The translations under genes and the position numbers were made by a program. The notes beneath the pieces are model-generated. The model saw only the letters and a list, made by a program, of their open reading frames with translations. It was not told the DNA's origin and made no database searches. This document shows, piece after piece, positions 4,312 to 56,200 of a DNA stretch of 64,000 nucleotides. Each line of letters starts with the position of its first letter. Within the stretch, counting starts at the first letter, position 1. The DNA is from Parabacteroides goldsteinii (GTDB lineage Bacteria > Bacteroidota > Bacteroidia > Bacteroidales > Tannerellaceae), in NCBI RefSeq assembly GCF_015550595.1, contig NZ_JADNBB010000027.1, positions 1 through 64,000 of the forward strand. Direction: 5' to 3'.

Positions 4312-5017
4312 GGTGCAAAGATAATACAAATTCATCAAAGAAGATATCGCGGTAATTGTTGCCGATGGCTATTTCGTATTTGTCGATGTAGATATCGTTA
4401 TTGTCGAAAGAGGCTATTTGTTGGGTGTTGACGATGTAAGAACGGTTTACCCGCAGGAATACTTTGGGAAGTAGTTCGTGTATCGCTTTCATGCTGGTTT
4501 TGGTGATGATGCGCTGGTCGGGAAGTTGAATGATTACATAATCTTTTAACCCCTCGATGAACAATATATCCTTAAAATTGACTTTGAAGAAACGACGTTC
4601 GGACTTGACAAACATGAACTCGCTTTGGACGTTCTCTATGTTTTCCTTTTCTTCCGTAAGTAGAAGCGCATGATATGATTTGGCTTTCTCTACCGCTTTC
4701 TGGAACCTATCGAAGATAATCGGTTTCACCAGGTAATCGACGGCATCCACTTCGTAACTGTCGATTGCATACTCAGCATAAGCGGTTGTGAATATAACAA
4801 GTGTGCTTTTAGGAATGGTACGGGCGAAGTCCAGTCCGGTCACTTTGGGCATGCGGATATCCAGAAATATCAGGTCGATCGGGTGCTCTTTGATAAACCG
4901 GGCAGCCGAAGTGGCATTATTGAAACTACCGGCCAGTGTCAGTCCTCCGGTTTCATTTATCAGCATCTCTACCGCTTCACGGGCCAGAGGTTCGTCGTCT
5001 ACGATGATACAGTTCAT
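4298..5017 (-). CDS. LytTR-family response regulator
   Basis: 239-residue two-component response regulator. The receiver domain (1-~120) has the acidic pair in CIIVDDEP, the phosphoacceptor aspartate in LIFLDIRMP, the conserved Thr in [12 protein letters not shown] and the Lys in YLVKPI. A LytTR DNA-binding domain (~135-235) follows, with [20 protein letters not shown] and the later RVNRSYIVN motif. It overlaps the kinase gene by ATGA, so 5014-6078 is its obvious partner. Target genes are unknown; the upstream TonB-dependent receptor is a candidate by proximity. Confidence 0.93.
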
Positions 5018-38578: not shown

Positions 38579-39089
38579 ATAGTTCTTAGTGAACTATGTC
38601 CTTTCGGCAGAGTCGAACATAACAGATGCAAAAATAAACTCTTGTTGGGTTTGCGGACACACAAATTAGTCTGATTGATGTGCACCAATTGTCCACAAAT
38701 AGAGTTTTAACATAACAAAGAATCGTATCTTTCTTTTTAGTTATCTGTTGTATAAGTTGTTTTAAGATTAATAATTCGCAGCCAATGCTTCTTTGTTGTT
38801 TTTTCTACCGGCATTTGGCTACAGGGTAGAAAATATCATCTGTTTTTACCCATAAATCACCTTTCCTACCTTTTGCATTCAACTGCTTAAGATATACGAA
38901 CCATTTGAATTTTCTAAGAAATACTTTCTTTTCTTCTCTTTTTTTGAGTTGTATTATCCAGAACCATCAACGATTAAAACAATGCGGACATTATGAATAT
39001 AATATTTAGAGATAAAGGTGTCTTTGGAAATTAGAGAGCCTTTTGAACGATATACAGAAACAAATCGGATTAAGTTCACTAAGAACTAT
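38579..39089. repeat. candidate invertible promoter segment 1 (upstream of SusC at 39197), OFF as given
   Basis: Left end: ATAGTTC-TTAGT-GAACTAT (38579-38597). Right end: AGTTC-ACTAA-GAACTAT (39073-39089). The 15-base cores are exact reverse complements of each other, so the ends form an inverted pair about 475 bp apart. Inside, the minus strand carries a -7 element TATTTTTG (38636-38629) in the context GTTTATTTTTGCATC. A box TGGACAATTGGTGCACA lies on the same strand at 38695-38679. Both face left, away from the susC gene. Inversion would turn the promoter towards 39197. I recall AGTTC(N5)GAACT as one of the invertible-promoter repeat classes of Bacteroides fragilis, found before SusC-type genes. 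No other gene is seen in 38436-39196. Confidence 0.72.
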
Positions 39090-39196
39090 TTCTCTTTTTG
39101 CATGTGGCGAACCAGACAAAGAGTATGTACTCCAATATTTGACCGGTATTGGTGTACGCAAACACTATTTATTCATTAACTAAATCTGGTGTTATT

Positions 39197-42100
39197 ATGA
39201 CAAAGGATTTTAATCGTTTTTATTTATCAAAGATGTTTATGGGAGCCACTATGCTCCTGACATCGGTAGGAGTGGCTTCGGCCGATCCTGCAAATCCGGG
39301 GATAGAAGTTCCGGTAACCGATGTCCTGATCGTTTCGCCACAACAAGCGAGAAAGACAGTAACCGGAACAGTTGAAGACGCCATGGGTCCGATTGCCGGT
39401 GCCAACATTGTAGAAAAGGGAACAACGAACGGGACCATTACCGACATGGACGGTAAGTTTACTTTAGATGTCGCTCCGAATGCCATTTTGGTGGTATCCT
39501 TTATCGGATACACAGAACAGCAGGTTCCGGTGGGAAATCAAACCTCTTTTACTATTCAGATTAAGGAAGACTCACAAGCTTTGGATGAAGTAGTTGTGGT
39601 TGGTTATGGTACACAAAAGAAAGTAAACCTGACCGGTTCCGTGTCTTCCGTCGATTTTGCCGACCAGGCTTTATCGCGTCCTATTACAAATGTGTCGAAT
39701 GCTTTGGCCGGTTTGAGTGCAGGTGTGCAGGTGATGCAAAGCTCCGGACAACCGGGTAGCGACGGTTCAAAGATCCGTATCCGTGGTGTCGGAACACTTA
39801 ACAATCAGGATCCATTAGTGTTGATCGATGGTGTGGAAGGTGCTATGGACCTTGTTAATCCGCAAGATATCGAGTCAATCTCTGTGTTGAAGGATGCTGC
39901 TTCTTCTTCAATTTATGGATCACGTGCTGCGAACGGAGTTGTTTTGATCACAACTAAAAAAGGAAAAGCCGGAAAGTTGTCTGTATCCTATTCAGGGCGT
40001 ATTTCTTATGCGCAGCCGACGAACCTGATCGACCAGGTGACCGATTATGCCGATTATATGGAGTGGCTGAACGAGTCGTTCGAAAACATCGGCCAGCCGA
40101 ACCATTTTGCCCAGAGCACGATCGATCTGTGGCGTGAAAAATCAAAAGATCCGAACGGATTGAATGAACATGGGGTTCCTAATTATATCGCTTATCCGAA
40201 TACCGACTGGCAGGATGCCTTGTTCGGACACGGTTTGATCAACGATCATAATGTATCTGTGAACGGAGGAACCGAGAAATTGCGTATCTTGATGTCTGCC
40301 GGTTATCTGGATAATCCGGGGCTGGTCGACCAAACCGGTATCAGGAAATATTCCTTGCGTGCCAATATAGAAGCGGATGTAACCAAATGGCTGACTGTGG
40401 GAACCCGTACATTTGCGTCTCAGGAGGATAAGGATGCGGGAAATTTCGATAATGCAAACAACTTCCTGCGCCAGACAACTCCCGGACTCTATCCGGAGTG
40501 GAACGGGCAGTATGGTTATCCGGAAGCACCGGAAGAAAGTGCGACTGCCAACAGTATCCTGGCTTTCCTCAATGCACAGGATGGTAAAAAACAGAAGACA
40601 AACTTCAACACGACTTTGTACTCGCGTATTTCTCCGATAAAAGGATTGTCATGGGATTTTAACCTGAACTACAAACGGTATTGGGAAGACAACCAAACCT
40701 GGACGAATCCGTATGAAAAGGTGAAGTTTAGCGATGGAACAATCATGTCGCCGGCAACGGAGCCCTCTGAAATGAGTACTTATTTCTATAACCGTGCGGA
40801 TTATAGTTATACCCTGCAGAACATTTTGCGCTATAATATAACGCTTAACAAGGATCATGACCTGGGTGCATTGCTGGGTTACGAAGAGTACTATTACAAA
40901 CGTGATACCCGTAGTGCGAACAAGAAAGGGTTGATCGACTCAAGCATTCATACACCCGGATCGGCGACAGAAATGGTAAGTGTGGGTGGTGGAGCATTCG
41001 ATCGTGCCAGCCGTTCATTCTTCGGTCGTATTAATTATGCATATAAATCCAGATATCTGTTCGAAGCAAATCTGCGTCACGACGGGAATGCCCGTTATCA
41101 CCGCGATTACCGTTGGGGTACTTTCCCCTCTTTTTCTGCCGCTTGGCGTATTTCGGAAGAAAGCTTCATGCTGAATACCAAAAACTGGTTGGACAACCTG
41201 AAACTCCGTGTATCTTACGGATCGGTAGGTAACAACGGTGGTGACGATGTGGGAGAATATGAATATCAGTCTACTTATGGCGGAAGTAAATATCCGTTCG
41301 GAGGAAAACTGATATCCGGTCTGGCTTCTACTTCCATTGCAAACTCAATGTTGTCGTGGGAAACGTCTAAAATGACCAATGTCGGTATCGACCTGAATGC
41401 GTTGAACAACCGTCTGTCTTTTACGATGGATGCGTTTGTTAAGAATACGACAGGTATCTTGTTTACACCTTCTATCTATCTGACAGCAGGTAATAAGGGA
41501 GCTCCCCGTAAGAACATTGCGGAAATGACTACCAAAGGTGTCGAACTGTCGCTGGGATGGAAAGACCGGATCGAAGAAGTCAGCTATTCTATTAGTGGAA
41601 ACTTTTCTTACACGCCTAATAAGATAAAGAAATATAAAGGAGAACTTGTGGCCGGTTATGATGAAAACGGTGAATGGAAGAGTAATATCGGGGATGTAGC
41701 TTCCAGTACTTCCGCTGTAAATCCGGTTATTGAAGACCGCATCATGAAGGAATACTATGTTCGTAATCCTTATAAAGGTTCCGGAAAAGGATATGCAGCC
41801 GACGGAGTGAATGGTGGTCCGACAGATGGTATGATCCGTACGGAAAGCGATATGGAGTGGATGAAAGCCATGATCGATGCCGGTCATACTTTCATGCCGA
41901 ATAAAACGATTTCCAAAGATAAGATCTGGTATGGTGACTATATTTATGCCGATGCCAATGGCGACGGTATCTATGGCGGTTCGGACGATAAAGAGTTTCA
42001 GGGTGTGTCTTCCGATCCGAAATACAACTTCGGTTTGCAGATGTCAGCAGCCTGGAGAGGGTTCGATATTTCGATGAACTGGGCAGGTGCTGCCGGCTTT

Positions 42101-42523
42101 AAGTTATATTGGGGTGCTTCGACCGGTTATAACTCACCGACAACCCGTGTAGGTGTGGCTCTGGGTACTGATATTGCCAACGACCACTATTTCTATAACC
42201 CGGAAAACCCGTCTGATCCCCGTACAAACCTGTATGCTCAATATGGTCGTCTGGTGAACGGTGAGAGTGGTTATCAGAATGTTGAAACATCTTCATTGTA
42301 TCTGTTCAACGGTAATTACCTGAAATTAAAGAACCTTACTTTCGGTTATACCTTGCCGGCTCATATCTCCAAGAAGATTTTTACGGATAACCTTCGTGTA
42401 TATGTTTCTATTGAAAACGTATTCAATATAACGAAGTATCCGGGTCAGGATCCTGAACTGGGAGCATATCCGGAATATACTTCACTGAGACAATTTGCAT
42501 TTGGTGCTAACATTTCATTTTAA
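39197..42523 (+). CDS. SusC/RagA-family TonB-dependent receptor (pair 1)
   Basis: 1108-residue outer-membrane glycan importer. After the signal peptide (~1-30, ending GVASA), a CarboxypepD_reg-like domain at ~52-130 starts TVTGTVEDAMGPIAGANIVE. The SusC signature is DEVVVVGYGTQKKVNLTGS, the plug contains SVLKDAASSSIYGSRAANG, and the barrel ends LRQFAFGANISF. It has no STN domain, so it does not use sigma/FecR signalling. ATG 39197 is supported by the 27-base leader (attaactaaatctggtgtta then ttATGAC), which also precedes the paralogue at 49343. Expression probably depends on the orientation of segment 38579-39089. SusD follows after 13 bp. Confidence 0.95.
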   Translation: MTKDFNRFYLSKMFMGATMLLTSVGVASADPANPGIEVPVTDVLIVSPQQARKTVTGTVEDAMGPIAGANIVEKGTTNGTITDMDGKFTLDVAPNAILVVSFIGYTEQQVPVGNQTSFTIQIKEDSQALDEVVVVGYGTQKKVNLTGSVSSVDFADQALSRPITNVSNALAGLSAGVQVMQSSGQPGSDGSKIRIRGVGTLNNQDPLVLIDGVEGAMDLVNPQDIESISVLKDAASSSIYGSRAANGVVLITTKKGKAGKLSVSYSGRISYAQPTNLIDQVTDYADYMEWLNESFENIGQPNHFAQSTIDLWREKSKDPNGLNEHGVPNYIAYPNTDWQDALFGHGLINDHNVSVNGGTEKLRILMSAGYLDNPGLVDQTGIRKYSLRANIEADVTKWLTVGTRTFASQEDKDAGNFDNANNFLRQTTPGLYPEWNGQYGYPEAPEESATANSILAFLNAQDGKKQKTNFNTTLYSRISPIKGLSWDFNLNYKRYWEDNQTWTNPYEKVKFSDGTIMSPATEPSEMSTYFYNRADYSYTLQNILRYNITLNKDHDLGALLGYEEYYYKRDTRSANKKGLIDSSIHTPGSATEMVSVGGGAFDRASRSFFGRINYAYKSRYLFEANLRHDGNARYHRDYRWGTFPSFSAAWRISEESFMLNTKNWLDNLKLRVSYGSVGNNGGDDVGEYEYQSTYGGSKYPFGGKLISGLASTSIANSMLSWETSKMTNVGIDLNALNNRLSFTMDAFVKNTTGILFTPSIYLTAGNKGAPRKNIAEMTTKGVELSLGWKDRIEEVSYSISGNFSYTPNKIKKYKGELVAGYDENGEWKSNIGDVASSTSAVNPVIEDRIMKEYYVRNPYKGSGKGYAADGVNGGPTDGMIRTESDMEWMKAMIDAGHTFMPNKTISKDKIWYGDYIYADANGDGIYGGSDDKEFQGVSSDPKYNFGLQMSAAWRGFDISMNWAGAAGFKLYWGASTGYNSPTTRVGVALGTDIANDHYFYNPENPSDPRTNLYAQYGRLVNGESGYQNVETSSLYLFNGNYLKLKNLTFGYTLPAHISKKIFTDNLRVYVSIENVFNITKYPGQDPELGAYPEYTSLRQFAFGANISF

Positions 42524-42536
42524 AGCGTAGAGAGTT

Positions 42537-44288
42537 ATGAAATTAATAAAAAATATTTGTTTATTAGGCGCTTCTATCGCTCTGCTGACAGGGTGTAACA
42601 GCGACTTGATGGATCTGACCCCGTATGACTCGATTGCGTCCGGAAACATGTGGACGACAGAGAATCTGGCTGATATGGGAGTTACAGGCATTTATAATGT
42701 GCTTCGTTCTGAGAACGTAGCCGGTGACCTGCATAAATTCGACAGTTATGGCGTTTCCGCCGATTACCGTGATGGAAATTACTCCTTATTAAGAGGAAAT
42801 GCGACAACCGGCGACGGACAGTTCTCCGGCTACTGGAAAATCAATTACGAAGGGATCAGCCGCTGCAATGATGCGATAACCAACTTACCGAAGGCTCCAT
42901 TGTCGGAGTCGAAGCTTGCTCGTTTGACCGCAGAGTCCAAGTTCATGCGTGCCTTCTTCTATTATCGGTTGAATATGATGTATAAAGGTGTTCCTTTGTA
43001 TCTGGAACCGGCCGAACTGGATGAACTGGTGAAAGGACGTAATACGGAAGCCGAAGTATGGGCTCAGGTCATTACCGATTTGACGGATGCGATCAATACA
43101 GCAGATCTGCCGGATAAGTATGCTGCCGGTGATGCTGCTTATGGTCGTGTAACTAAAGGTGCCGCTTATGCTCTACGTGGCAAAGTATATATGTGGATGA
43201 ACGAATGGGCGAAAGCGGAAGCCGACCTGCGTAAAGTGGGTGATCTGGGGTATGGATTATTCCAGGGTGAATATAAACAGCTGTTCAAAGAAGCCAATGA
43301 ACAATGTGAGGAGATGATTTTTTCCCTGCAATGTATCGGTGAAAGCGGATACGGTAATAACTTCTCTTTCCGTTATGGCACGCGTAGTTCTTTCGGCTCC
43401 TGCTGGAATACCTATCTGGTAAGTACAGACTTTGTTGAGACATACGAATGTGCGGATGGAAAACCGTTCGACTGGGACGATTTTATACCGGGGTATAATG
43501 CGATGGATGTGGCAAAAAGATCTGTTTATTTCCTGCGTGATGAGATGACGGATGCCGAAAAGGCAAAGATGACCGAAGACGGTGCCGATCTGTCTAAGTA
43601 TCTGCCAACTGGAAACGAAGCCCGTATCAAGGCCGCTTATGAAAATCGTGACCCTCGTCTGATGGCAACTATCATTACTCCGTATGCACAGTATTTTGGA
43701 GCTAATGGTGCGACCTCCTACACATATACGCTTCGTTGGCCGTACAGAGGGTTCGATACAGCCGATCCGTTCGACTTGAAAACAGATACCAACAACCGTT
43801 ATTACTATCTGTTCCGTAAATTTGTGGCTGAAGGTGCCTCGGAAATTCCAAACCGTGAGTATTCTCCGATCGATATACCTATTATCCGTTATGCCGATGT
43901 CGTATTGTCGCTGGCTGAATGCCTGAATGAACAGGGTAAAACGAGTGAAGCGATCGAGTGGGTGAATAAAGTTCGTGCCCGTGCCGGTGTTGCCCTGCTA
44001 AACAGTAATCAGTATACGCGGGTTTCCGGTCAGGATAATATGCGCGACCGCATCCGTAACGAACGTCGTTGGGAATTTGCCGGCGAAGGTGTTAACTTCT
44101 TTGATGAAATGCGTTGGAAGACCTGGCACGAAACCAAGTTTAAGAATGGAGCAGGCTTGAAGCAGATCTGGGGTTCTATGCAGGCATCCTATTCATGGGG
44201 TGGTGATTACCTGTACAACTGGGCTATTCCTAGATCTGAAATTCAGATGAACAATAATCTGACTCAGAATAGTGGTTGGATAGATTAG
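42537..44288 (+). CDS. SusD/RagB-family surface glycan-binding lipoprotein (pair 1)
   Basis: 583-residue lipoprotein with lipobox LLTGC (Cys near residue 20). SusD features include LMDLTPYDSIASGNMW, the TPR-like AESKFMRAFFYYRLNMMYKG, IIRYADVVLSLAECLNEQGK, and NERRWEFAGEGVNFFDEMRW near the end. It pairs with the SusC at 39197. It converges on the second SusD gene, with only a perfect 12-bp hairpin between the two operons. Confidence 0.95.
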   Translation: MKLIKNICLLGASIALLTGCNSDLMDLTPYDSIASGNMWTTENLADMGVTGIYNVLRSENVAGDLHKFDSYGVSADYRDGNYSLLRGNATTGDGQFSGYWKINYEGISRCNDAITNLPKAPLSESKLARLTAESKFMRAFFYYRLNMMYKGVPLYLEPAELDELVKGRNTEAEVWAQVITDLTDAINTADLPDKYAAGDAAYGRVTKGAAYALRGKVYMWMNEWAKAEADLRKVGDLGYGLFQGEYKQLFKEANEQCEEMIFSLQCIGESGYGNNFSFRYGTRSSFGSCWNTYLVSTDFVETYECADGKPFDWDDFIPGYNAMDVAKRSVYFLRDEMTDAEKAKMTEDGADLSKYLPTGNEARIKAAYENRDPRLMATIITPYAQYFGANGATSYTYTLRWPYRGFDTADPFDLKTDTNNRYYYLFRKFVAEGASEIPNREYSPIDIPIIRYADVVLSLAECLNEQGKTSEAIEWVNKVRARAGVALLNSNQYTRVSGQDNMRDRIRNERRWEFAGEGVNFFDEMRWKTWHETKFKNGAGLKQIWGSMQASYSWGGDYLYNWAIPRSEIQMNNNLTQNSGWID

Positions 44289-44386: not shown

Positions 44387-46102
44387 TTACCAGTTAGGGT
44401 TCTGTTCAAGCTTGTCATTCATTTCTATTTCTTCTGCCGGGATAGGCCACAAGTAATCGCGGTTTTCACGGAATACACGCGTCAGCAGGCGCTTACCGGT
44501 GATGCCGTATTCTTCGCGATTCAGTAATGTGTGTGACAATTTCCAACGGCGCAGGTCACTGTCGCGAACACCTTCACCTGCCAGTTCATAGGCTCTTTCA
44601 CGGAAGATACGCTGGAAGACTTCATCTTTCGAGTTGGCCGCCAGGTAAGAAGGACCACTGTTCAATAATGCGATACCTGCACGGGCACGTACTTTGTTGA
44701 TGTATTCTACTGCCTTAGTCTGGTTGCCGGTTTCATTGTAACATTCAGCCAACATCAGGTAAACATCAGCCAGGCGGATGATCGGGAAGTTTACAGGTGT
44801 ATGTTCGCGGTTCGTGATAGCACCGTTCCAGTCTCCTTCCGGTACGAATTTTCTCCAGAAATAAGTTTCCCAACCTCCCTTATTATTACGCATGAAACCA
44901 TTGTTCTCGTTCACTGCAACTACGTCTCCTTTGGTATTCTTTGCAAAGATGAATGTCATCAGGCGTTCTTCGTTACGGTTCCATCCCAGATAAGTACTGT
45001 AAGGAGCGATCACTGTAGCCGACATACGCGGGTCACGTTGTTCGTACATTTCCAGGATCTTTGCGGATTCTGCCGGTTGGTCGAGGATTTCATCGCCGGC
45101 ATCGCTCACTGTACATCTGAATACACGTTCACGTACCTGATTGTCGGTTGTATATCCCGGGAACAATTCATCCCAGTTGAAAGGACGTCCGTCTTTGTAT
45201 TCATACATGTCGACCAGGTCGACAGAAGGCAGGGTGTTATTCCAGCAACTGCCGAATGAGTTACGTGTGCCGGCGTAGAAGCACAGCGGCATACCGTAAT
45301 CATTACCTGTTCCACCCAGATTGATGATCGAGAAGATCATTTCCGAACTGGTGTGTCCTGTCAGGTTGAACAAGTCGGCGAAGTTTTCGTACAGCTCATG
45401 ACCGCTGGTTGATTTTTCCAAGTGTTCGATCGCTTTGTCATAACTTTTACTGTACAGATATACCTTACCCAATAATCCTTCTACGGCAGAAGTCGTTACA
45501 CGACCGTAATTGGCTGCATCCCATGTATCCGGAAGTCCTGAGTTCTGCGCTTTTTCCAGGTCTGCAATGATGAACGCACGTGTTTCTTCGGCAGAACTTC
45601 TCGGATTCATCAGGTCGTTGAAATCCTGTTCCAGATTGGTCGTTTCGTCATAGAGAGGAAGACCTCCGAAGTAATCCATCAGATGGAAATAGATCAGGGC
45701 ACGGAGGAAATGGGCTTCTCCGAGCATCTGGTTCTTTACCGTTTCGTCGATAGGTGCTTCACCGATACTGCGGATGGCGAGGTTGGCACGCTGGATGCCG
45801 TTGTATCCGTTCTGCCATTTACCGTTGAGGAAACTGGTTCGCGGTGTACAGGTTCCCAGTTGGAGAGCTTCATACTGGTCGTAGCCGACTGCAACATCCG
45901 AGTTTACGTCGATCATAAACATTTTACCGTAGAGGTCGGTGTTTTTCAGGGACGCATACACACCCATCAAACCTGACTTACACTGATCTTCTGTCTGCCA
46001 GAAGGTAGAAGAGCTTAACTGGTCGTAAGGTGCCCTGTCCAGGTCATAGCAGCTTGTTAATGCCAGAAGTGCTGCTAAAAAAGGCATAATATATTTTTTC
46101 AT
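44387..46102 (-). CDS. SusD/RagB-family surface glycan-binding lipoprotein (pair 2)
   Basis: 571-residue lipoprotein with lipobox LTSC (Cys near residue 18). It starts YDLDRAPYDQLSSSTFWQTE and has GEAHFLRALIYFHLMDYFGG, IIRLADVYLMLAECYNETGN and RERAYELAGEGVRDSDLRRW. The end DKLEQNPNW is typical of the family. It is the partner of the SusC at 46137-49343, with a 34-bp gap. It is similar to pair 1 in general pattern (NREYSPID versus NREHTPVN, RAGIALLNS) but clearly diverged. Confidence 0.95.
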   Translation of the reverse strand: MKKYIMPFLAALLALTSCYDLDRAPYDQLSSSTFWQTEDQCKSGLMGVYASLKNTDLYGKMFMIDVNSDVAVGYDQYEALQLGTCTPRTSFLNGKWQNGYNGIQRANLAIRSIGEAPIDETVKNQMLGEAHFLRALIYFHLMDYFGGLPLYDETTNLEQDFNDLMNPRSSAEETRAFIIADLEKAQNSGLPDTWDAANYGRVTTSAVEGLLGKVYLYSKSYDKAIEHLEKSTSGHELYENFADLFNLTGHTSSEMIFSIINLGGTGNDYGMPLCFYAGTRNSFGSCWNNTLPSVDLVDMYEYKDGRPFNWDELFPGYTTDNQVRERVFRCTVSDAGDEILDQPAESAKILEMYEQRDPRMSATVIAPYSTYLGWNRNEERLMTFIFAKNTKGDVVAVNENNGFMRNNKGGWETYFWRKFVPEGDWNGAITNREHTPVNFPIIRLADVYLMLAECYNETGNQTKAVEYINKVRARAGIALLNSGPSYLAANSKDEVFQRIFRERAYELAGEGVRDSDLRRWKLSHTLLNREEYGITGKRLLTRVFRENRDYLWPIPAEEIEMNDKLEQNPNW

Positions 46103-46136
46103 TTTGTAATTCCGTTTATAAGTTCAACAATCATGA

Positions 46137-49100
46137 TTAGAATGTAACATTGACTCCAACAACCACCTGGCGCATGGTAGGATATTTGATACCATTTACT
46201 TCAGGGTCGTATCCTTTCCATTTCGTGAATGTAAAGAAGTTTTCCAAACTGCCGTAGAACCGGACTCTATCCATATAAGCTACTTTCGACCAGGCTGTCG
46301 GCAGCGTATATCCCAATGTGATGTTACGTATCTTCAGATAAGACTTGTCGGTTACCCAGAAATCGGAATACTGTTCGTTCCTGGTATCGCTGTAATCCAG
46401 CAAGCGAGGATAGCTGGCATCTGTGCGGCCTTCATACCAGCGTCCGTCGATAACATCTGCATTCAGTTGATATCCCTGGCGCACGGTTGTTTTATACAAG
46501 GCACTCAGATATACGTCTTTGAGACCAGCCTGTCCTTGTATCAATGCGGAGAAGTCGATACCTTTCCAGTTGAAGCCCAGGTTAACACCGTAGGTAAATG
46601 TCGGGTTTTGTCCGTTGCCGATAACGGTACGGTCGTCGTCATTAACCAGTCCGTCGCCGTTGAGGTCTTTGTAGAGGATATCACCTTTTTGGGGAGTTCC
46701 GTAAGGGAATACCACTTTGCCTTCTACGGCCGGGTTATCCAACATGGCCTGTACGATTGCCAGGTCTTCGTCTGTCTGGATGATGCGGTCTACTTCGCGC
46801 ACATATAGTGACCAGATAGGAAGACCTTCCTGCAGGATTCTTGCATCCTTGATCGTATAGTCGTCTCCTTTAAATTTATCTACGTTGTTCTTGATGTAAG
46901 TGAAGTTGAAACCTACGTTGTAAGAGAAATCTTTTCCGATCTTGTCGCTCCAGTTGGTAGAGAATTCAAGCCCCCTGTTGGTTATCTGTGCGGAGTTCTG
47001 CTTGGGGATAGTGGCATTACCGTGCACTTTCGGCGCCGGAAGATCGATCAGGATACCTTCTGTTCTTTTGTTAAAGAATTCGACAGATCCTGACAGGCGG
47101 TTACCTAATACATTGTAATCAAGACCGACGTTGGTAATATAAGTCGTTTCCCATGTCAGCGCGGCATTTGCGATCGCTGTCTGTGAAAGTCCCATGGCTA
47201 CGGCACGTCCCAATACATAGTTTGTTTGCGCGTACAGGGATTGTGAAGTATAATTGCCATCATTATCGCGGTTATCCCCTAATGTATTATTACCCAATGA
47301 ACCGTAAGATGCACGTATCTTCAGGTTGTCCAGCCAGTTCTTGGTATTCTCCATGAAACCTTCTTCCGAAATACGCCATGCGGCGGAGAAAGAGGGGAAG
47401 TAACCCCAGCGATTGTCTGCCAGGAAGCGTGAAGAACCGTCTGCACGCAGGTTGACTTCCAATAGATATTTGTCATCCCAACCCAGGTTGAGGCGACCGA
47501 AGAATGAACGCATGGCCCACTCGGTGACATTACCAGTCGTGGATGATTCACCAATAGCTCCTTCGATTACATTCAATGACGGGTCGATCAGGTCTTTGCG
47601 GGTGCCGCTGAAGAATTGCCGTTTATACTGTTCCTGGCTACCACCGACCATCAGGTTTGTGCTTAGGCGGTCGTCGAAGAAGTTACGTTCGTAACGAACT
47701 GTCGCGTCCATAAAATTCCTGAATGTCTTTTCGTTATAATTCGAGATACTGGTCTGGCCTACACCGTCGGTATACAGGGTGTTGGTTTGGAAGTTGTACA
47801 TCGGAACGAAATTAGGTTTGCTCTCTTTGAACTTATCATAGTAGTCATACGTGTATGATCCTTGTATAGTCAATCCTTTTAGGGGAGTCAGGACAGCATA
47901 CAGACGGGTCTTTAACGTGTTGACCTGGATATTACCGGAAACATTTCTCAGACGGTTATACGGGTTGTTTGTTGCATTCTGAGGATCATCTTCCGCATTC
48001 GCATTGATACCCAGGCGGTTTTGATCGTCCAGATAGGCGATACCCGGGTTACCGCCTGTCAGACCGTAGGTATAGATATCGTCGATATTGTCGCTGACCG
48101 GCGTTGTGTTGGAGGTGTATCCGCTCAGGTTTACCCCGATCTTCAACCAGTCTTTTACCTGTGAGTCGACATTGGCGCGCAGGCTGAAACGCTCGAATCC
48201 GCAGTTTTCCAGGATGCCCGGGTTGTTCAGATAGTTGAAAGAAGTGTAATAGGTGATCTTATCCGAGCCTCCGGATGCGGAGATATTGTGCTGGTGGGAA
48301 ACTCCAGTTTCATACACATCGAAAATGCTGTTGTTCGGATATGCCAGATAATTCGGCATTCCGTATTCGTTCAATCCGTTCGGGTCTTTGGACTTTTCAC
48401 GCCAGAGATTGATCACGTTCTCGGAGAATGGTTTGGGCTTGTTGCTGTTTGCCATTCCTTCATTCAGGTATTCCATGTAATTGGCGTAATCGGAAACGAC
48501 TTCATACGGCTGGTCCAGTGTCTGGAATGATACGTAACCGGTATAATCCAGTTTCATTTTGCCGGATTTACCTTGTTTTGTCGTGATCAGAATGACACCG
48601 TTGGCAGCACGTGAACCGTAGATGGCTGAAGAAGCGGCATCTTTCAGTACGCTGACTGTTTCCACATCCTGCGGGCTTACGCTGTTCAGCGTTCCTTCCA
48701 CCCCGTCGATGATAACCAGTGGCGAAGAGTTGTTCAATGTACCCTGGCCGCGTACCTTGATATCCGCATCGCCGTTGTTGGAGGGTAGGTTGTTGCTGGA
48801 TGTGATCTGTACACCGGGTGCAGTACCGGCTAATGCGGTAGAAATGTTGGTCAACGGACGACTCTCGGCCATTTCACTGACATTTACCGAAGTCACGGAA
48901 CCGGACATGTTCACTTTCTTCTGCGTACCGTAACCAACCACAACCACTTCATCCAATGCCTGTGAGTCTTCGGTGAGTTTGATGTTAAAGGTTTTTTGGT
49001 TATTTACCGGAACCTGTTGTTCTTTATATCCGATAAATGTAATAACCAAAATAGAGTTGGGTGCTACATCCAGAGTGAAATTACCGTCCATATCGGTAAT

Positions 49101-49343
49101 TGTACCATTGGTAGTCCCCTTTTCGATAACATTTGCTCCGGCAATCGGGCCGAATGCGTCCTGTACCACTCCCTTGATGGTTTGCTTCGCCTGCTGTGGC
49201 GATGTCACTGCTGCACTAGGTCCTGTGGGCCTCAATAATTCAACAGAAGGATTCGCCGACATCTCGCTTACGGATGTAAGGAACATGGTTGTTCCCAGAA
49301 ACAGCGCCTTCGATACGTGAAAGTGAGTAAAATCTTTAGTCAT
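46137..49343 (-). CDS. SusC/RagA-family TonB-dependent receptor (pair 2)
   Basis: 1068-residue paralogue of the SusC at 39197, oriented towards it. The N-termini are closely similar (MTKDFTHFHVSK versus MTKDFNRFYLSK), as are the CarboxypepD_reg domain (TIKGVVQDAFGPIAGANVIE) and the signature DEVVVVGYGTQKKVNMSGS. The extracellular loops and barrel differ, which suggests related but distinct ligands. There is no STN domain. It shares the 27-base leader with pair 1. The candidate switch 49449-49873 lies about 100 bp upstream, with its promoter pointing away in this sequence, so the pair is predicted to be silent in the given orientation. Confidence 0.95.
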   Translation of the reverse strand: MTKDFTHFHVSKALFLGTTMFLTSVSEMSANPSVELLRPTGPSAAVTSPQQAKQTIKGVVQDAFGPIAGANVIEKGTTNGTITDMDGNFTLDVAPNSILVITFIGYKEQQVPVNNQKTFNIKLTEDSQALDEVVVVGYGTQKKVNMSGSVTSVNVSEMAESRPLTNISTALAGTAPGVQITSSNNLPSNNGDADIKVRGQGTLNNSSPLVIIDGVEGTLNSVSPQDVETVSVLKDAASSAIYGSRAANGVILITTKQGKSGKMKLDYTGYVSFQTLDQPYEVVSDYANYMEYLNEGMANSNKPKPFSENVINLWREKSKDPNGLNEYGMPNYLAYPNNSIFDVYETGVSHQHNISASGGSDKITYYTSFNYLNNPGILENCGFERFSLRANVDSQVKDWLKIGVNLSGYTSNTTPVSDNIDDIYTYGLTGGNPGIAYLDDQNRLGINANAEDDPQNATNNPYNRLRNVSGNIQVNTLKTRLYAVLTPLKGLTIQGSYTYDYYDKFKESKPNFVPMYNFQTNTLYTDGVGQTSISNYNEKTFRNFMDATVRYERNFFDDRLSTNLMVGGSQEQYKRQFFSGTRKDLIDPSLNVIEGAIGESSTTGNVTEWAMRSFFGRLNLGWDDKYLLEVNLRADGSSRFLADNRWGYFPSFSAAWRISEEGFMENTKNWLDNLKIRASYGSLGNNTLGDNRDNDGNYTSQSLYAQTNYVLGRAVAMGLSQTAIANAALTWETTYITNVGLDYNVLGNRLSGSVEFFNKRTEGILIDLPAPKVHGNATIPKQNSAQITNRGLEFSTNWSDKIGKDFSYNVGFNFTYIKNNVDKFKGDDYTIKDARILQEGLPIWSLYVREVDRIIQTDEDLAIVQAMLDNPAVEGKVVFPYGTPQKGDILYKDLNGDGLVNDDDRTVIGNGQNPTFTYGVNLGFNWKGIDFSALIQGQAGLKDVYLSALYKTTVRQGYQLNADVIDGRWYEGRTDASYPRLLDYSDTRNEQYSDFWVTDKSYLKIRNITLGYTLPTAWSKVAYMDRVRFYGSLENFFTFTKWKGYDPEVNGIKYPTMRQVVVGVNVTF

Positions 49344-49448
49344 AATAACACCAGATTTAGTTAATAATTAGATAATAGTTTTCTCATTTGTAATTGTCAT
49401 TTTGTATTTTCCATATTCCGTATGTCTACATAAATATTTAGTAGAAGC

Positions 49449-49873
49449 ATAGTTCGTATAGAACTATGGTGTATATGGTTTGTTGGCAGGGAAAAGCATG
49501 AATTTTAAATAGTCTTTGATGATTCTCTGTAGTGGATAGGTTATATTATCTAAATGAGTAACTTAACGGTAGGATAAATGAAAGAATAACATGAAGGAAA
49601 GTCCGTTTTTTCGAGTAAAGAAGCTGATTTAAGTAACAATGATGGCTGATAAATATTTTTTTCCGGATAGGATTCTGAATGAACAATATGTTTAAAGTAT
49701 TTAAATTCACATCTTACTGCATGATCGCAATGGGCTAACAACCAGGTTGGTATTGTTCTTAACGCATAAATGCTGGACAATTAGTGCATAATTAATGGAT
49801 AAAATTATACATCCGTTAATATAATTAACGTTTATATTTGCATCGTTTTGACATTAGTTCTATACGAACTACG
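49449..49873. repeat. candidate invertible promoter segment 2 (upstream of SusC at 49343), OFF for SusC as given
   Basis: Left end: CATAGTTC-GTATA-GAACTATG at 49448-49468. Right end: AGTTC-TATAC-GAACT at 49857-49871. The 15-base cores are exact reverse complements, giving inverted ends about 390 bp apart. Inside, the plus strand carries the box TGGACAATTAGTGCATA (49774-49790) and, 43 bases on, a -7 element TATATTTG (49834-49841) in the context GTTTATATTTGCATC. It points right, towards the lyase gene, and away from the susC gene on the minus strand. Inversion would aim it at 49343. The rest of 49344-49998 holds no gene I can support. Confidence 0.72.
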
Positions 49874-49906
49874 ACTATGAGAAAAACCCGTTAAAACTTC
49901 ATTTCT

Positions 49907-49971
49907 GGACAATAGGGGCACATGAATTGGATAAATAATCCTGTCATTTATAGACTTTCTTTCTACTTTTG
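49907..49971 (+). promoter_or_regulatory. fixed promoter and activator box of the lyase/GH88 operon
   Basis: TGGACAATAGGGGCACA (49907-49923) matches the boxes of the two switch segments at about 14-15 of 17 positions. The exact -7 element TACTTTTG (49964-49971) follows 40 bases later, close to the 42-43 base spacing in the switches. A half-repeat TGGATAA starts 22 bases after the box start. It lies outside the inverted repeats, so it is not switchable. Confidence 0.6.
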
Positions 49972-49998: not shown

Positions 49999-51933
49999 AT
50001 GAATGTATGTAAAAATGTAACTTTGTTATGTCTATTGCTAATGTTAACAGCTCCTGTCTATGCGTATATTGAACGGGATTTGCTGCAACAAGCTGCCAAT
50101 GTGGAAAAACTTGAATCTGTATTGATCCTCAATCAGGAATGGGTGCCTTACCCACTTTATACCGACCGTGCCGGTTGGGATCAGTTTCTGGGTGATTACA
50201 AAAACGAGTATATCAAACGGGGAGAGAAACAACTTGACTACGAGTGGAAAGTCGTAAAAGCAACTGATTATATAGAATATGAGCGTAGTGGCAACCGCCG
50301 GATCATGGAAGATCCTTTCGGTAGTAATAATACCGCCCTTGCCGATCTGTTGATGGCAGAACTGGCCGAAGGAAAAGGCCGTTTTATCGACCAGCTTATC
50401 AATGGCGTTTACCAATCCTGTGAAATGACTTCCTGGGTATTGTCCGCTCACCTGAGTGCGCAACACTCCACACGTTCCTTGCCGGATTATAAAGAACACG
50501 TGATCGATCTTACTGCCGGTGACATGGGATCGTTGCTTTCATGGACTTACTACTTCTTCCATTCCGAATTCGACAAAGTAAACCCGGTTATCTCCGAACG
50601 CCTGCGCCATGAGTTGCAGGAACGTATCCTCGATACCTATATGAAAGAAGACCGCTTCTGGTGGATGGCTTTCAACTATAAACCGGGAACTTTGGTAAAC
50701 AACTGGAATCCGTGGTGTAATTCAAATGCCCTGCAATCTTTCCTGTTATTGGAAAATGATAAAAAAACGTTGGCAAAAGCCGTTTACCGTACGATGGTTT
50801 CTGTCGATAAATTCATCAACTATACCCATTCCGACGGGGCTTGCGAAGAAGGCCCTTCCTATTGGGGGCATGCTGCCGGAAAGATGTATGACTATCTACA
50901 ATTATTATATGACGGAACAGGTGGGAAGATCAGTTTGTTCGACCAACCGATGATCAGGAACATGGGAGAATACATTGCCCGTTCATACGTAGGGAACGGC
51001 TGGGTCGTGAACTTTGCCGATGCTTCCGCCAAAGGGGGAGGAGACGCTCCGATCATCTTCCGCTATGGAAAAGCGGTGAGCAGCGATGTGATGATGCAGT
51101 ATGCCGCTTATCTCAACAGCCTGTCGAAGCAGAAAGCCCCTTCTTCCGGACGGGATATATTCCGCACATTGCAAAGCATTCTCTATGCCAAAGATATGGA
51201 ACAGGTGAAACCTGTCTACGAATCGCCCGCTTATACCTGGTATCCGGAAACAGAGTTCTGCTACATGACAAACAAATCCGGCCTTTTCTTCGCAGCTAAG
51301 GGAGGTTATAACAATGAAAGTCATAACCACAACGATGCCGGAACTTTCTCCCTCTACCTGCATACGACTCCGGTCTTTATCGATGCCGGCGTAGGAACTT
51401 ATACCCGCCAGACGTTCAGCAGCGAGCGATATACGATCTGGACCATGCAAAGCAACTATCATAACTTACCGATGATAAATGGTGTTCCCCAATCATTCGG
51501 AGCAAAATATAAAGCGACGGACGTTTCTTTCAATCCGAAAAGCAGTACGTTCTCGGCCAATATCGCTACAGCTTATCCCGAAGAAGCCGGAGTCAATAAA
51601 TGGCTTCGTTCCTATACACTGGGCAAAGGAGAATTGAAGATCAAAGACACATTTACTTTGAATGAGTTAAAAGACTTCAATCGTGTCAACTTCCTGACCT
51701 GGGGTAAAGTGGATATCGCCACACCCGGTGTGGTCGCTATCGAAGTGAATGGCGAAAAGGTAAACCTGCAATACGACAAAAACAGTTTTACCCCTTCCCT
51801 CGAGACCATTACGCTGGATGATCCGCGTTTATCCAATGTGTGGGGAAAAGAGATATACCGCCTTTCTTTGACAGCAAAGAAGAAAGCCCTCTCCGGAACA
51901 TATGTGTACACAATCAAACAAAACAATAAATAA
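49999..51933 (+). CDS. heparinase II/III-family polysaccharide lyase-like protein
   Basis: 644-residue secreted protein (signal peptide ~1-22). The N-terminal half is an (alpha/alpha) toroid with WMAFNYKPGTLVNNWNPWCN and DGACEEGPSYWGHAAGK. The C-terminal half is the heparinase II/III-like beta-sandwich with GYNNESHNHNDAGTFSLYL and the later MQSNYHNLPMINGV. The Asn-His-Asn/His-Asn-Asp and Tyr-His residues fit the metal-bound core and catalytic residues of this lyase fold. It would cleave a uronic-acid polysaccharide by beta-elimination and leave unsaturated ends. GH88 follows after 7 bp and removes exactly such residues. The specific polymer is not evident; a PL family number is not assigned here. 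Confidence 0.85.
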   Translation: MNVCKNVTLLCLLLMLTAPVYAYIERDLLQQAANVEKLESVLILNQEWVPYPLYTDRAGWDQFLGDYKNEYIKRGEKQLDYEWKVVKATDYIEYERSGNRRIMEDPFGSNNTALADLLMAELAEGKGRFIDQLINGVYQSCEMTSWVLSAHLSAQHSTRSLPDYKEHVIDLTAGDMGSLLSWTYYFFHSEFDKVNPVISERLRHELQERILDTYMKEDRFWWMAFNYKPGTLVNNWNPWCNSNALQSFLLLENDKKTLAKAVYRTMVSVDKFINYTHSDGACEEGPSYWGHAAGKMYDYLQLLYDGTGGKISLFDQPMIRNMGEYIARSYVGNGWVVNFADASAKGGGDAPIIFRYGKAVSSDVMMQYAAYLNSLSKQKAPSSGRDIFRTLQSILYAKDMEQVKPVYESPAYTWYPETEFCYMTNKSGLFFAAKGGYNNESHNHNDAGTFSLYLHTTPVFIDAGVGTYTRQTFSSERYTIWTMQSNYHNLPMINGVPQSFGAKYKATDVSFNPKSSTFSANIATAYPEEAGVNKWLRSYTLGKGELKIKDTFTLNELKDFNRVNFLTWGKVDIATPGVVAIEVNGEKVNLQYDKNSFTPSLETITLDDPRLSNVWGKEIYRLSLTAKKKALSGTYVYTIKQNNK

Positions 51934-51940
51934 AGAAAGA

Positions 51941-53146
51941 ATGAAAAATTGGATTGCCCTGGCTTTCTCCGCATTTCTGGTCTCTTGTGGGGGAGCACCT
52001 AAAACAGTAGAAAAAAGCTTTGTCGACGAGAATGTCGATTTTGCCCGTGCTCAGATCGGTAATGAAATAGCAGTAATCGAAGCAAGCGGTGAATGCCTTA
52101 ATCCGGTGACACTGAAAGCCGACAGTTCCGTCTATTACTGTGGCTACGGTGACTGGCGCAGCGGCTTTTTCCCCGGTTCCGTCTGGTATCTGTATGAACT
52201 GAGCGGAGATACGGCTCTGCTTCCATTGGCCCGGAAATATACATTGGCCATAGAAGAAGCCAAGAACCTGACCTGGCATCATGATATCGGCTTTATCATC
52301 AATTGCAGTTTCGGTAACGGCCTGCGCCTGACAGCCGATCCGTCTTATAAAGACGTGATGGTACAGGCTGCCAAATCGTTGTCCACCCGTTTTCGTGAAG
52401 CTCCCCAGGTGATCCAGTCGTGGAACGTGGATCGCGGATGGCAGTCGGAACGTGGTTGGGAATGTCCGGTGATTATTGACAATATGATGAATCTGGAACT
52501 GATGTTCGAAGCGACCCGTTTATCCGGCGACTCTTCTTTCTATAAAATCGCTATTGCACATGCCGACCGTACTTTGCAGGAGCATTTCCGTCCGGATGGC
52601 AGTTGCTACCATGTAATCGATTACAGTCTCAAAGACGGTTCCGTACGTCACCGCCATACCGCACAGGGATATGCGCACGAATCTGCGTGGAGCCGCGGAC
52701 AAGCCTGGGCTATCTATGGTTATGTCGTTTGCTACCGGGAGACAGGCGATCGCAAATATCTGGATCAGGCACTAAAGACATTCAACTTCATGAAGAATCA
52801 TAAAGCCATGCCGGCCGACTTTATTCCTTACTGGGATATGGATGCCCCGAATATACCGAACGAACCCCGCGATGTATCTTCTGCTTCCTGTATTGCTTCT
52901 GCATTATACGAGATCAGCACGATGGATGTGGAAAACGCAGCAGATTATAAAGCCTATGCCGACGGTATAATGACCTCGCTGGCCTCTCCGGCTTACCGTG
53001 CGGCCTTAGGCGCAAACGGTAACTTCCTGTTGATGCACTCGGTGGGTAGTATTCCTCACAACTCGGAAATAGATGTCCCCTTGAACTATGCCGACTACTA
53101 TTTCATGGAAGCCCTTAAACGTAAACAGGATATAGAAGCAAAATAA
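51941..53146 (+). CDS. GH88 unsaturated glucuronyl hydrolase (lipoprotein)
   Basis: 401-residue (alpha/alpha)6-barrel enzyme that hydrates the 4,5-double bond of terminal unsaturated uronic acid and releases it. The lipobox LVSC (Cys near 16) places it on a membrane surface. Family marks are WRSGFFPGSVWYLYE, TWHHDIGFIINCSFGNGLRL, IIDNMMNLELMFEA (Asp in DNMMN as a catalytic candidate) and SAWSRGQAWAIYGYVVCYRE. ATG 51941 gives the signal peptide. It is co-transcribed with the lyase-like gene. A strong terminator follows. Confidence 0.93.
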   Translation: MKNWIALAFSAFLVSCGGAPKTVEKSFVDENVDFARAQIGNEIAVIEASGECLNPVTLKADSSVYYCGYGDWRSGFFPGSVWYLYELSGDTALLPLARKYTLAIEEAKNLTWHHDIGFIINCSFGNGLRLTADPSYKDVMVQAAKSLSTRFREAPQVIQSWNVDRGWQSERGWECPVIIDNMMNLELMFEATRLSGDSSFYKIAIAHADRTLQEHFRPDGSCYHVIDYSLKDGSVRHRHTAQGYAHESAWSRGQAWAIYGYVVCYRETGDRKYLDQALKTFNFMKNHKAMPADFIPYWDMDAPNIPNEPRDVSSASCIASALYEISTMDVENAADYKAYADGIMTSLASPAYRAALGANGNFLLMHSVGSIPHNSEIDVPLNYADYYFMEALKRKQDIEAK

Positions 53147-53219: not shown

Positions 53220-56200
53220 CTATCCGTTATTGGATGCCTGCCGCTTCTTGTATTCCGCCGGTGTCGTATCGAACTGGGCTTTGAAGCAACGGGTGAAATA
53301 ACGGGGAGAGCCGAAGCCTAACAGGTCGGAGATCTCTGCGATTTGCAGGTCCGGCCGGGTGATTAGCAAGGTTGCCGCCCGTTTCAGTTTGCAACTGAGA
53401 ACAAAATCGTTCGGGGTCATGCCCGTAAGGGCCTTAAACTTAGCATACAGCGAGCTGCGGCTCAGTCCCAGTTCTTTAGCCAGCGTATTCATATCGAACT
53501 CCATATTATCCATGTTTTCTTCAATGATCTTGTTGACTGCATCCATAAATTTCTGGTCGATCGGGTTGCTGGCGAGCGACTGTGTGTCGAAGTCCCTTTG
53601 TTCGTTGAATTTCTTTTGCAGGATAATGCGGTTGCGCACCAGATTGTTGCAGCGGGCAAGCAGTACCCGGGCATTGAACGGTTTACTGATATAATCGTCC
53701 GCACCACGTTGCAGACCTTCGATGCTCTGTTCCGCAGAACCGAGTGCCGTAAGCAGGATCACCGGTATATGGCAGATATCGAAATCGTTTTTGATTTTCA
53801 GGCACATCTCCGTACCCGACATTTCCGGCATCATGATATCGCTCACGATAATATCCGGCCTTTCGCTCCGGGCCTTTTCCAATCCCTCTTTGCCGTTGCT
53901 GGCCAATAGGACGTGGTAGGCCGGCGAGAAGAGAGAGTTCAGTATCTGGAGCAATTCTTCATTATCGTCCACCAATAAAACGGTATAGGTTGCACCTGTT
54001 TCTATAAGTGATAATTCGGATGTTTCTTCGGGAAGTTCTTTTATGATGGTTTCCGGAAGTATTTCGTTCCGCATCCCTTCATTTTCGGGTTCGACAAACT
54101 TACATTCATCTTCTTTGAAATGCGCCCGTCCTTTGGGTAAATGAACGATGAATATACTTCCGTAGCCCGGCGTGCTTTCCACCTGTATCTTACCGTGATG
54201 CAGTTCTACGATACTTTTGGTTAGCGACAAGCCGATCCCCGTACTGGGCTGTGTCAGACCGGACGCATTGCTGCCGGCCTGATAAAAGCGGTCGAATATT
54301 TTGTCGATATCCTCTTTGCCGATACCGATACCGTTGTCGATAATTTTGATGATGATAGCCTGTTCGTTATCCTCTACTACCATTTCGATCGCAGCCCCCG
54401 GTTTGGAGTATTTGAACGCATTCGACAGCAGGTTGTAAAAAACCTTTTGCATCTGTTTCGGATCGAACCAGCACAAGATACTTTCCTCCTGGGTTGTGAA
54501 GCTATAAGTCACTGAACGGCCGGAGGCATATTCGTAAAAAGAGAGATAGATCTCTTTCAGGAACGGGATGATGTTCTGTTCGTATACATTCAGCTTCACA
54601 TGTCCCTGTTCCAGTTTACGGAAATCAAGCAGTTCGCTGATCAATGTCCGCATGTTATGGGTGTTTCTGTATATTTTCAACAGTTTGTTATAAGTGGAAG
54701 GCGCCAGCGAACTACTTTGCAACAATAGTTCGATCTGGGATATGATCAGTGTGAGCGGCGTCCGGAACTCATGCGAGATATTGGAGAAGAATTGCAGTTT
54801 CGCCTGGTTCAATTCTTCGATCCTGTCTTTTTCCTTGCGTTCGAACTCCAGCGATGTCCGGAGCAGCAATTGCGACTGTTTGAAGCGGAAGAAACCGTAG
54901 ATAAGTCCGCCCCCCACCAACACATACAAGAGGTAGAAGAGCGGAGTCGCGTAGAACGGCGAATGGATAACGATTCCCATGCGGATCGTTTGCGGTTCAA
55001 CCTTGGGATCGTATTGCTTCTCGCGTACGATCAATGTATATTTCCCCGGGCTGAGATTGGTGTATTGGATGCTGTTGTCATTGTTGCTGATCCATTTATC
55101 GTCGAAACCTTCCAGCATATATTCGTAGGCTGTTTCTTTCAGCGTATTGATGTAGTTGTTTGAATTGAAGGTGACGATCAGGTTATTCTGATTGTGTCTC
55201 AGGTCTATTTCATGGATATAAGGCAGTGCGTCCGACAATATATGTGTCCGGTCGTTGGGCTGTACCGCTTCGTTGTTGATATATAAATCAGAGAAATACA
55301 GCTGGTAGTCTTTGGCCGGACGAAACAGATCCTGTTCGAAGAATGTTGTCACCCCGTCTATGCCGCCGACAAATATCTCGCCGTTTTGGCAAACCAACAG
55401 TCCGCAACCTTTATTGATGCCCGATACCGGAAGGGCAGTCCCTTGTTCCACAACCTTGAATTGTTCCTGCCCGGGATCGAAGAAAGAGAGCCCTTTGTCG
55501 CCGGATATGATCAGATAACCTTGTGTCGACTCTTTGATGTTATAACAATAGTCGCTTAATATCAGGCTGTTGTTTGTCGTATACCCTTTGAACGAATTGT
55601 TCTTTTCATCAAACTCATACAGACCCGCCCCCAGTGTCCCGAAGAAAATACGTCCTTTCTTGTCTTCATAAATAGTAGAGATCAGCTGTTTGCCGAGTCC
55701 GTTTTCGCCACAACGGAACATACGCAGGTCTTGTTCGTCATTCATTTTAATCCTGTAGAGGGTGTATCCGGTAGTGATCCAGATATAATCGTGCGAGTCG
55801 ATCAGGAAACAATGATTTCCATATGTCTTCCCGCTGGGGAATATCGGGCTGATATGCTCGGTGTCGAGATCCATCATCGCATTGCCCCATTGGGTCATGA
55901 ATACCAGGTACTTGTCTTTCCAGATACGCATCTGGTTGATCCTGTCGCCTGCCTTTACCGCATATGCCGGATCTTCAAAATAAGGATTACGGAAGCGTTT
56001 TTTTGAAAGGTCGAAGATGGATAATCCCCCGGTATGCGTCCCGATATAAAGCTTGTTGTGCTTTTGGCTGTAAGCAATATCTTTCAGGTTGTTATGGGCG
56101 ATGGAGTTCTTGTTGGGATCGGCCATGAAGTAGGTGAAGGTCTTTGTTTTCCTGTCAAAGAGGTTGAGGCCGCCGCCTTCTGTACAAATCCAGATATTAC

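Follow-up and report, generated by a model that had tools for sequence, protein, structure and literature searches.

The segment at positions 38579-39089 of the analysed stretch (hereafter the window: 64 kb of DNA, part of contig C19 of a 6.5 Mb genome, G000) is probably a site-specifically invertible promoter serving a SusC/SusD gene pair. A second segment in the same cluster would be switched likewise, and transcription from either would require both a regulator signal and the right orientation. We put the probability of this joint explanation at roughly 0.8. The sequences show the sites, the direction of the promoters, the operator with its distance to the -7 element, the concerted change of spacers, and inversion of segments that are homologous or of the same family; we infer the inversion at the exact locus, the control of expression and the identities of the regulator and the recombinase. 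The second segment (49451-49870), an operator-like sequence common to the invertible promoters and a fixed lyase promoter, and the neighbouring regulator were all absent from the earlier note on this DNA.

The SusC/SusD pair that had been placed at 39197-44288 is borne out by Pfam. The first gene, susC1 (39197..42523, + strand), is the presumed target of promoter P1 and encodes a TonB-dependent receptor (CarbopepD_reg_2, Plug, beta-barrel); susD1 lies at 42537..44288 (+). Domain searches identified susD2 (44387..46102, -) and susC2 (46137..49343, -), the latter being the presumed target of invertible segment 2, as well as a heparinase II/III-like lyase gene (49999..51933, +) and a glycoside hydrolase family 88 gene (51902..53146, +). 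A hybrid two-component regulator with Reg_prop, Y_Y_Y, HisKA, HATPase_c, Response_reg and AraC-type HTH domains is encoded at 53220..57245 (-). Comparison of the window SusC with relatives gave 95% identity in Parabacteroides gordonii (best segment) and 83% in P. acidifaciens, pointing to Parabacteroides as the genus. In G037 and G009, the susC2/susD2 genes and segment 2 (window 44387-49870) are absent from the interval that separates susD1 from the lyase gene, which measures about 5 kb in these genomes versus about 10.4 kb in G000.

Segment 1 is bounded by a 17-nt inverted repeat, 100% complementary, whose arms (38579..38595, left, +; 39073..39089, right, -) enclose 477 bp with no strand of their own (38596..39072). 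The earlier note had described AGTTC-N5-GAACT palindromes at both ends, with 15-base cores that are reverse complements, and a -7 element inside facing left. Both descriptions hold. One palindrome lies within each arm, the cores AGTTCTTAGTGAACT (38581-38595) and AGTTCACTAAGAACT (39073-39087) are exact reverse complements, and the match extends exactly over the full 17 nt. The -7 element of P1, TATTTTTG (38629..38636, minus strand), is the sole occurrence of the -7 consensus TAnnTTTG (PMC4747536, used in excerpt) when both strands of the segment are scanned; it points left, away from susC1, and is unchanged in G037 and G009. Reading by eye found no clear -33 element at P1, which counts against the proposed switch. 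Segment 1 shows three marks of a Tsr0667-type SusC/SusD inverton: paired AGTTC-N5-GAACT sites, an outward TAnnTTTG inside, and susC/susD downstream. Between G000 and G009 the left arm is 100% and the right arm 95% identical, the -7 element 100% and the operator block (38678-38735) 91%, versus 53% for the remainder of the segment. The leader between the right repeat and the susC1 start is devoid of TAnnTTTG in G000, G037 and G009. Two stretches of this leader (window 39116-39200), TATTTGACCGGTAT and TTAACTAAATCTGGTGTTATTATG, are conserved in the same three genomes, and TTAACTAAATCTGGTGTTATTATG stands before susC2 too, on the reverse strand.

According to the proposed mechanism, a tyrosine recombinase would pair the two AGTTC-N5-GAACT sites, exchange strands within the 5-bp spacer and flip the 477 bp between the arms. 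As sequenced, with P1 pointing left from susC1, the locus would be in a presumptive OFF state. Inversion would carry the -7 element, by simple arithmetic, to 39032-39039, where it would face susC1 across a leader of roughly 150 nt. Segment 2 would switch susC2/susD2 in the same manner, and it too was sequenced with its promoter directed away from its susC. Its recombination sites, AGTTCGTATAGAACT (49451..49465, +) and AGTTCTATACGAACT (49856..49870, -), were identified by the AGTTC-N5-GAACT search and enclose 390 bp (49466..49855, no strand) between susC2 on the minus strand and the lyase gene on the plus strand. The -7 element of its promoter P2, TATATTTG (49833..49840, +), faces the lyase gene and has susC2 behind it. 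A further TAnnTTTG, TACTTTTG (49964..49971, +), lies outside the invertible segment and is assigned to the fixed lyase promoter, P3. A shufflon would require three or more compatible sites at one locus; no such set was found in the window, where the two pairs have different spacers (TTAGT vs GTATA).

The window sites belong to a genome-wide family. Four copies of AGTTC-N5-GAACT are present in the window, against an average of 0.05 in dinucleotide shuffles, and none of 100 shuffles reached four; G000 as a whole has 45 exact sites vs 2 for the control pattern read backwards. The recognition consensus that Nakayama-Imaohji et al. reportedly gave in 2009 for the recombinase Tsr0667 is AGTYYYN4GDACT, which we take to fit each of the four sites in the window, read in one of its two directions. 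A search for partners, tolerating at most two arm mismatches and one spacer mismatch, covered all 45 sites in G000, 45 of the 46 in G037 and 48 of the 54 in G009; a few isolated sites and four G009 sites were left out. Pairs whose two spacers agree numbered 23, 21 and 24 in the three genomes, respectively, or 68 of the 68 counted. Two more rows, which combine a single spacer mismatch with two arm mismatches, were left out of the 68 and are probably chance matches. Given that one spacer mismatch was allowed and yet all 68 spacers were identical, the arms tolerate mismatches and the spacers do not. Spacers are unlike at most loci, with some in common, such as TTTTA at three sites on contig C85.

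Among 94 site pairs, 66 have an outward TAnnTTTG at most 60 nt from an end, 63 of them at one end only and 3 at both; the other 28 have none near either end, which counts against the explanation. The 69 ends concerned compare with a shuffled mean of 7.5 and a maximum of 18 in 200 shuffles, and inward TAnnTTTG occurs at 11 of the 188 ends. The distance from the outward -7 element to the segment end clusters at 22-29 nt; from its coordinates, the P1 element sits deeper than usual, at 41 nt. Elsewhere in G000, three same-spacer sites, two exact and one with an arm mismatch (at 4423 of region L028), extend across 7.8 kb, and the starts of susC genes lie in between (L028:4001-11790, corresponding to G000:C85:54277-62066), a layout reminiscent of a shufflon. 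Other invertible segments precede small sigma-factor-like ORFs (L011, L022, L029) or response-regulator or sensor-like ORFs (L013, L027), all named by eye.

At the locus of segment 1 the spacer is TTAGT/ACTAA in G000 and G009 and TGAGT/ACTCA in G037, the same base being changed at both ends, which points to recombination there. Across 14 orthologous loci of G000, G037 and G009, all five spacer changes were mirrored in the partner site vs none of six arm changes, a split with an exact probability of 1/462. Twenty further regions had been chosen for exact sites and matching spacers and were kept out of both this test and the count of 68. A staggered exchange within the spacer would produce such a pattern: sites with unlike spacers would recombine and, upon replication, give chromosomes carrying the same spacer at both sites. 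Alternatively, mirrored spacers could arise from independent compensatory mutations, selected for the function of the pair. Under either explanation, the site pair would be in use.

Orientation was compared directly between genomes. Fifty reciprocal-best comparisons at 21 loci gave 33 cases of equal orientation, 6 inverted and 11 without a call; some of the six are doubtful, both flanks being susC copies that can be matched either way. Three inversions are relied upon. G000 L014 is inverted relative to G037 L114, with flanks 95% and the inside 90% identical over 578 bp. G004 and G005 differ by inversion of a 536-bp inside that is 100% identical, between flanks of 100 and 99%. The third concerns a segment before a homologous susC in the same gene cluster, which in G014 vs G020 lies between co-directional flanks (87%, 78%) and is itself inverted (80%, 158 bp). 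G014 is inverted with respect to G012 and G013 too, a weaker case in that a second susC forms the right flank and the assignment relies on the better-matching flank. Homologous susC starts are preceded by invertible segments in all of G012, G013, G014 and G020. Window segment 2 matches G014 directly and runs opposite to G012, G013 and G020 along 76-84 bp of its promoter end, suggesting that the susC2 switch is presumptively OFF in the window and ON in these three genomes.

As to segment 1, no inverted copy of the strict orthologue was found, and its orientation is equal in the three assemblies that have it (G000, G037, G009). The proposal of the earlier note that an invertible segment was captured in its OFF state is supported: the -7 element does point away from susC and segments of the same family do invert in the genus, although the exact locus was not itself seen inverted. 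The comparison of related genomes that had been suggested gave a mixed answer, the strict orthologue being constant while the homologous cluster segment is inverted between G014 and G020. One of the 14 orthologous loci of G000, G037 and G009 was seen inverted, indicating that switching is rare or strongly biased. Five contigs start no more than 20 bases from an AGTTC-N5-GAACT-type site (L061:4, G001:C77:6, G001:C143:4, G009:C2:20, G013:C2:5), as would be expected if assemblies break where the culture held both orientations.

The constancy of segment 1 in three of three assemblies would also be found if the pair had inverted in the past and were now locked, with susC1 either not expressed or transcribed from a fixed promoter that escaped recognition within 39090-39196. 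The conserved leader stretch TATTTGACCGGTAT could hide a non-consensus promoter of this kind. A locked pair is nonetheless difficult to reconcile with arms that stayed intact while the remaining segment diverged to 53% identity, and the concerted spacer change in G037 would be unexpected of it; moreover, none of the three leaders offers a TAnnTTTG. We consider such a relic improbable. Far less credible still is that the paired palindromes serve as operators for a dimeric DNA-binding protein, for instance one that loops the DNA, and play no part in recombination. Each site is indeed close to a perfect palindrome around 5 central nt, the form expected of a dimer operator. However, dimer binding fails to explain why the non-palindromic centres are identical in 68 pairs, unlike between most loci and changed together, and it leaves the observed inversions unaccounted for.

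An operator-like sequence is found upstream of the three promoters of the cluster. The common sequence TGGACAATNNGTGCANAT is matched with 0, 1 and 1 mismatches at P1 (TGGACAATTGGTGCACAT, 38678..38695, -), P2 (TGGACAATTAGTGCATAA, 49774..49791, +) and P3 (TGGACAATAGGGGCACAT, 49906..49923, +), and starts 58, 58 and 57 nt, respectively, before the -7 element. The combination of GGACAAT and TAnnTTTG at 57-58 nt occurs three times in the window, exclusively at P1, P2 and P3, against an average of 0.06 in 50 mononucleotide shuffles. The operator was chosen after the sequences had been inspected, and taken alone, at three mismatches, it has 6 window matches vs 2.0 expected; the pattern thus counts as evidence only when combined with the -7 spacing and with conservation. 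A relaxed scan covered 23 sources, made up of the window and L060-L081 with some DNA included twice, and found operator plus -7 element in 13 of them. These include the corresponding invertible segments of G012, G013, G014 and G020, and the lyase-side promoters of G037, G009, G020 and G014. Among the 29 other site regions of G000 a single match was obtained (L027, three mismatches, spacing 56) and was taken as chance. In P. gordonii, GGACAAT lies 58 nt before TATCTTTG (L060:115), near the start of the glycoside hydrolase family 2 gene and some 1.5 kb ahead of the part that aligns to window 37800; the window itself has no such match. Most operator copies continue to TGGATAAA about 20 nt further on, which by eye resembles a direct repeat. 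Direct repeats are frequent targets of AraC-type regulators, and the hybrid two-component regulator at 53220-57245 is the putative operator-binding protein.

Since P1 and P2 carry the operator of the fixed lyase promoter, their transcription would need the regulator signal and the right orientation at once, as in an AND gate. It could be objected that the segments invert and the operator merely reflects inherited likeness of duplicated promoters, with the regulator of the cluster not in control. The paralogy of susC1 and susC2 lends itself to this view, as their promoters could share descent, and P2 resembles the homologous segments beyond the operator as well. On the other hand, alignment confines the likeness of P1 and P3 mainly to the operator; the operator block has kept 91% identity between G000 and G009 in a segment that has mostly fallen to 53%; and the distance to the -7 element is fixed at 57-58 nt, including at fixed lyase promoters in other genomes. 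Shared descent without regulator control appears doubtful on these grounds, and we favour promoters gated by regulator and orientation together.

The search for the recombinase was directed at the 48 tyrosine-recombinase matches in G000. The comparison comprised 30 loci from three genomes and covered part of the G013 and G014 recombinases. It singled out three recombinases that have orthologues in all of G037, G013 and G014, one of them of 414 aa (96%, 74% and 73%, respectively). The other two, L030 and L032, are Xer-like and were set aside as presumptive XerC/XerD by their size and conservation. The 414-aa protein (G000:C55:118890-120050) is our best candidate for the invertase, a choice still unproven. 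It is present at full length with at least 59% identity in 18 of 38 genomes of the genus, and its recombinase catalytic motifs are conserved in six aligned sequences. SusC-like genes lie beside it in 16 of 16 neighbourhoods, and an exact site pair lies 4.5-5.5 kb away in 6 of these 16 (G002-G006, G018), one such pair being that inverted between G004 and G005; no site pair was found near it in G000, G037 or G009. Genomes with the candidate have a median of 12.5 sites (18 genomes) vs 7 in the 20 without it (p 0.0004, or 0.004 per Mb, uncorrected for kinship), but G021 has 21 sites and no match to the candidate, and our conclusions do not rest on this correlation.

Other recombinases fared less well. 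L083 (G000:C85:210022) and L085 (C11:424590) were rejected as master invertase for want of a match at E<=1e-60 in G013 or G014; exact site pairs number five in G013 and six in G014. An NCBIfam scan of ten recombinases returned distant Xer-type matches below the cut-offs alone and named no invertase. On C50 of G000, the invertible segment at L026:4001-4234 (G000:C50:16268-16501) adjoins a sulfatase-like gene and has the tyrosine recombinase domain of L055 some 1.1 kb away, a link that is not conserved, as the G037 orthologue of L055 (L188, C8:3619513, 93%) has no exact site listed nearby.

The arrangement resembles known systems of gut Bacteroidales. The likeness to inversions before SusC-type genes of Bacteroides fragilis, mentioned in the earlier note, fits the account of Tsr0667 in PMC4747536. 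There, a single tyrosine recombinase acts on many scattered sites, most of them beside susC/susD, controlling inversions at three clusters of SusC/SusD genes and at nine further regions, both as simple promoter inversions and as multi-site shuffling, with promoters of the TAnnTTTG type (the original work, Nakayama-Imaohji et al. 2009, J Bacteriol 191:6003, is taken as cited in excerpts of PMC4747536 and PMC11852207). Our case differs in concerning another genus, in that the invertase is a candidate proposed from sequence, and in that one operator is common to the invertible promoters and to a fixed promoter within the cluster. The Mpi system of B. fragilis is similar in its global inversion of promoters with ON and OFF states (PMC4747536, PMC12632263, in excerpt). 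It differs in employing a serine recombinase and in serving capsule genes (PMC4747536, same portion), whereas the locus in the window showed no capsule gene and has susC/susD downstream. Invertons of the PhaseFinder type, promoters bounded by inverted repeats, are described as common in gut Bacteroidales, SusC/SusD included (PMC10939037, in part), and Parabacteroides distasonis scored positive for numerous inversion sites (PMC5903667, partial text). Those invertons are called from reads; here the evidence is comparative, with concerted spacer change as an added line. In the portions of the literature covered, on hybrid two-component systems and on Parabacteroides with invertible promoters, no description of an operator inside a SusC invertible promoter was found, which is weak evidence of absence.

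Inversion of SusC/SusD promoters is thus known, and the new twist would probably be the combination of induction and orientation in one segment. A broader proposal, in which doubly gated promoters are joined to a spacer that acts as a barcode of the locus, copied from site to site by each recombination, is put forward tentatively, at slightly less than even odds. According to it, a glycan would induce uptake solely in cells with the switch rightly oriented, the lyase, expressed from a fixed promoter with the same operator, being induced in all cells. Mirrored spacer changes between species would provide, locus by locus, a read-free record of past inversion. Concerted spacer change would then allow working inversion loci to be recognised from plain assemblies, with no need for reads. 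Where segments precede likely regulator genes instead of susC, whole regulons might vary. If the explanation is true, the uptake system would be divided among cells despite the presence of the nutrient, with the surface lyase in all of them and the importer in some, and division of labour within one strain would become testable.
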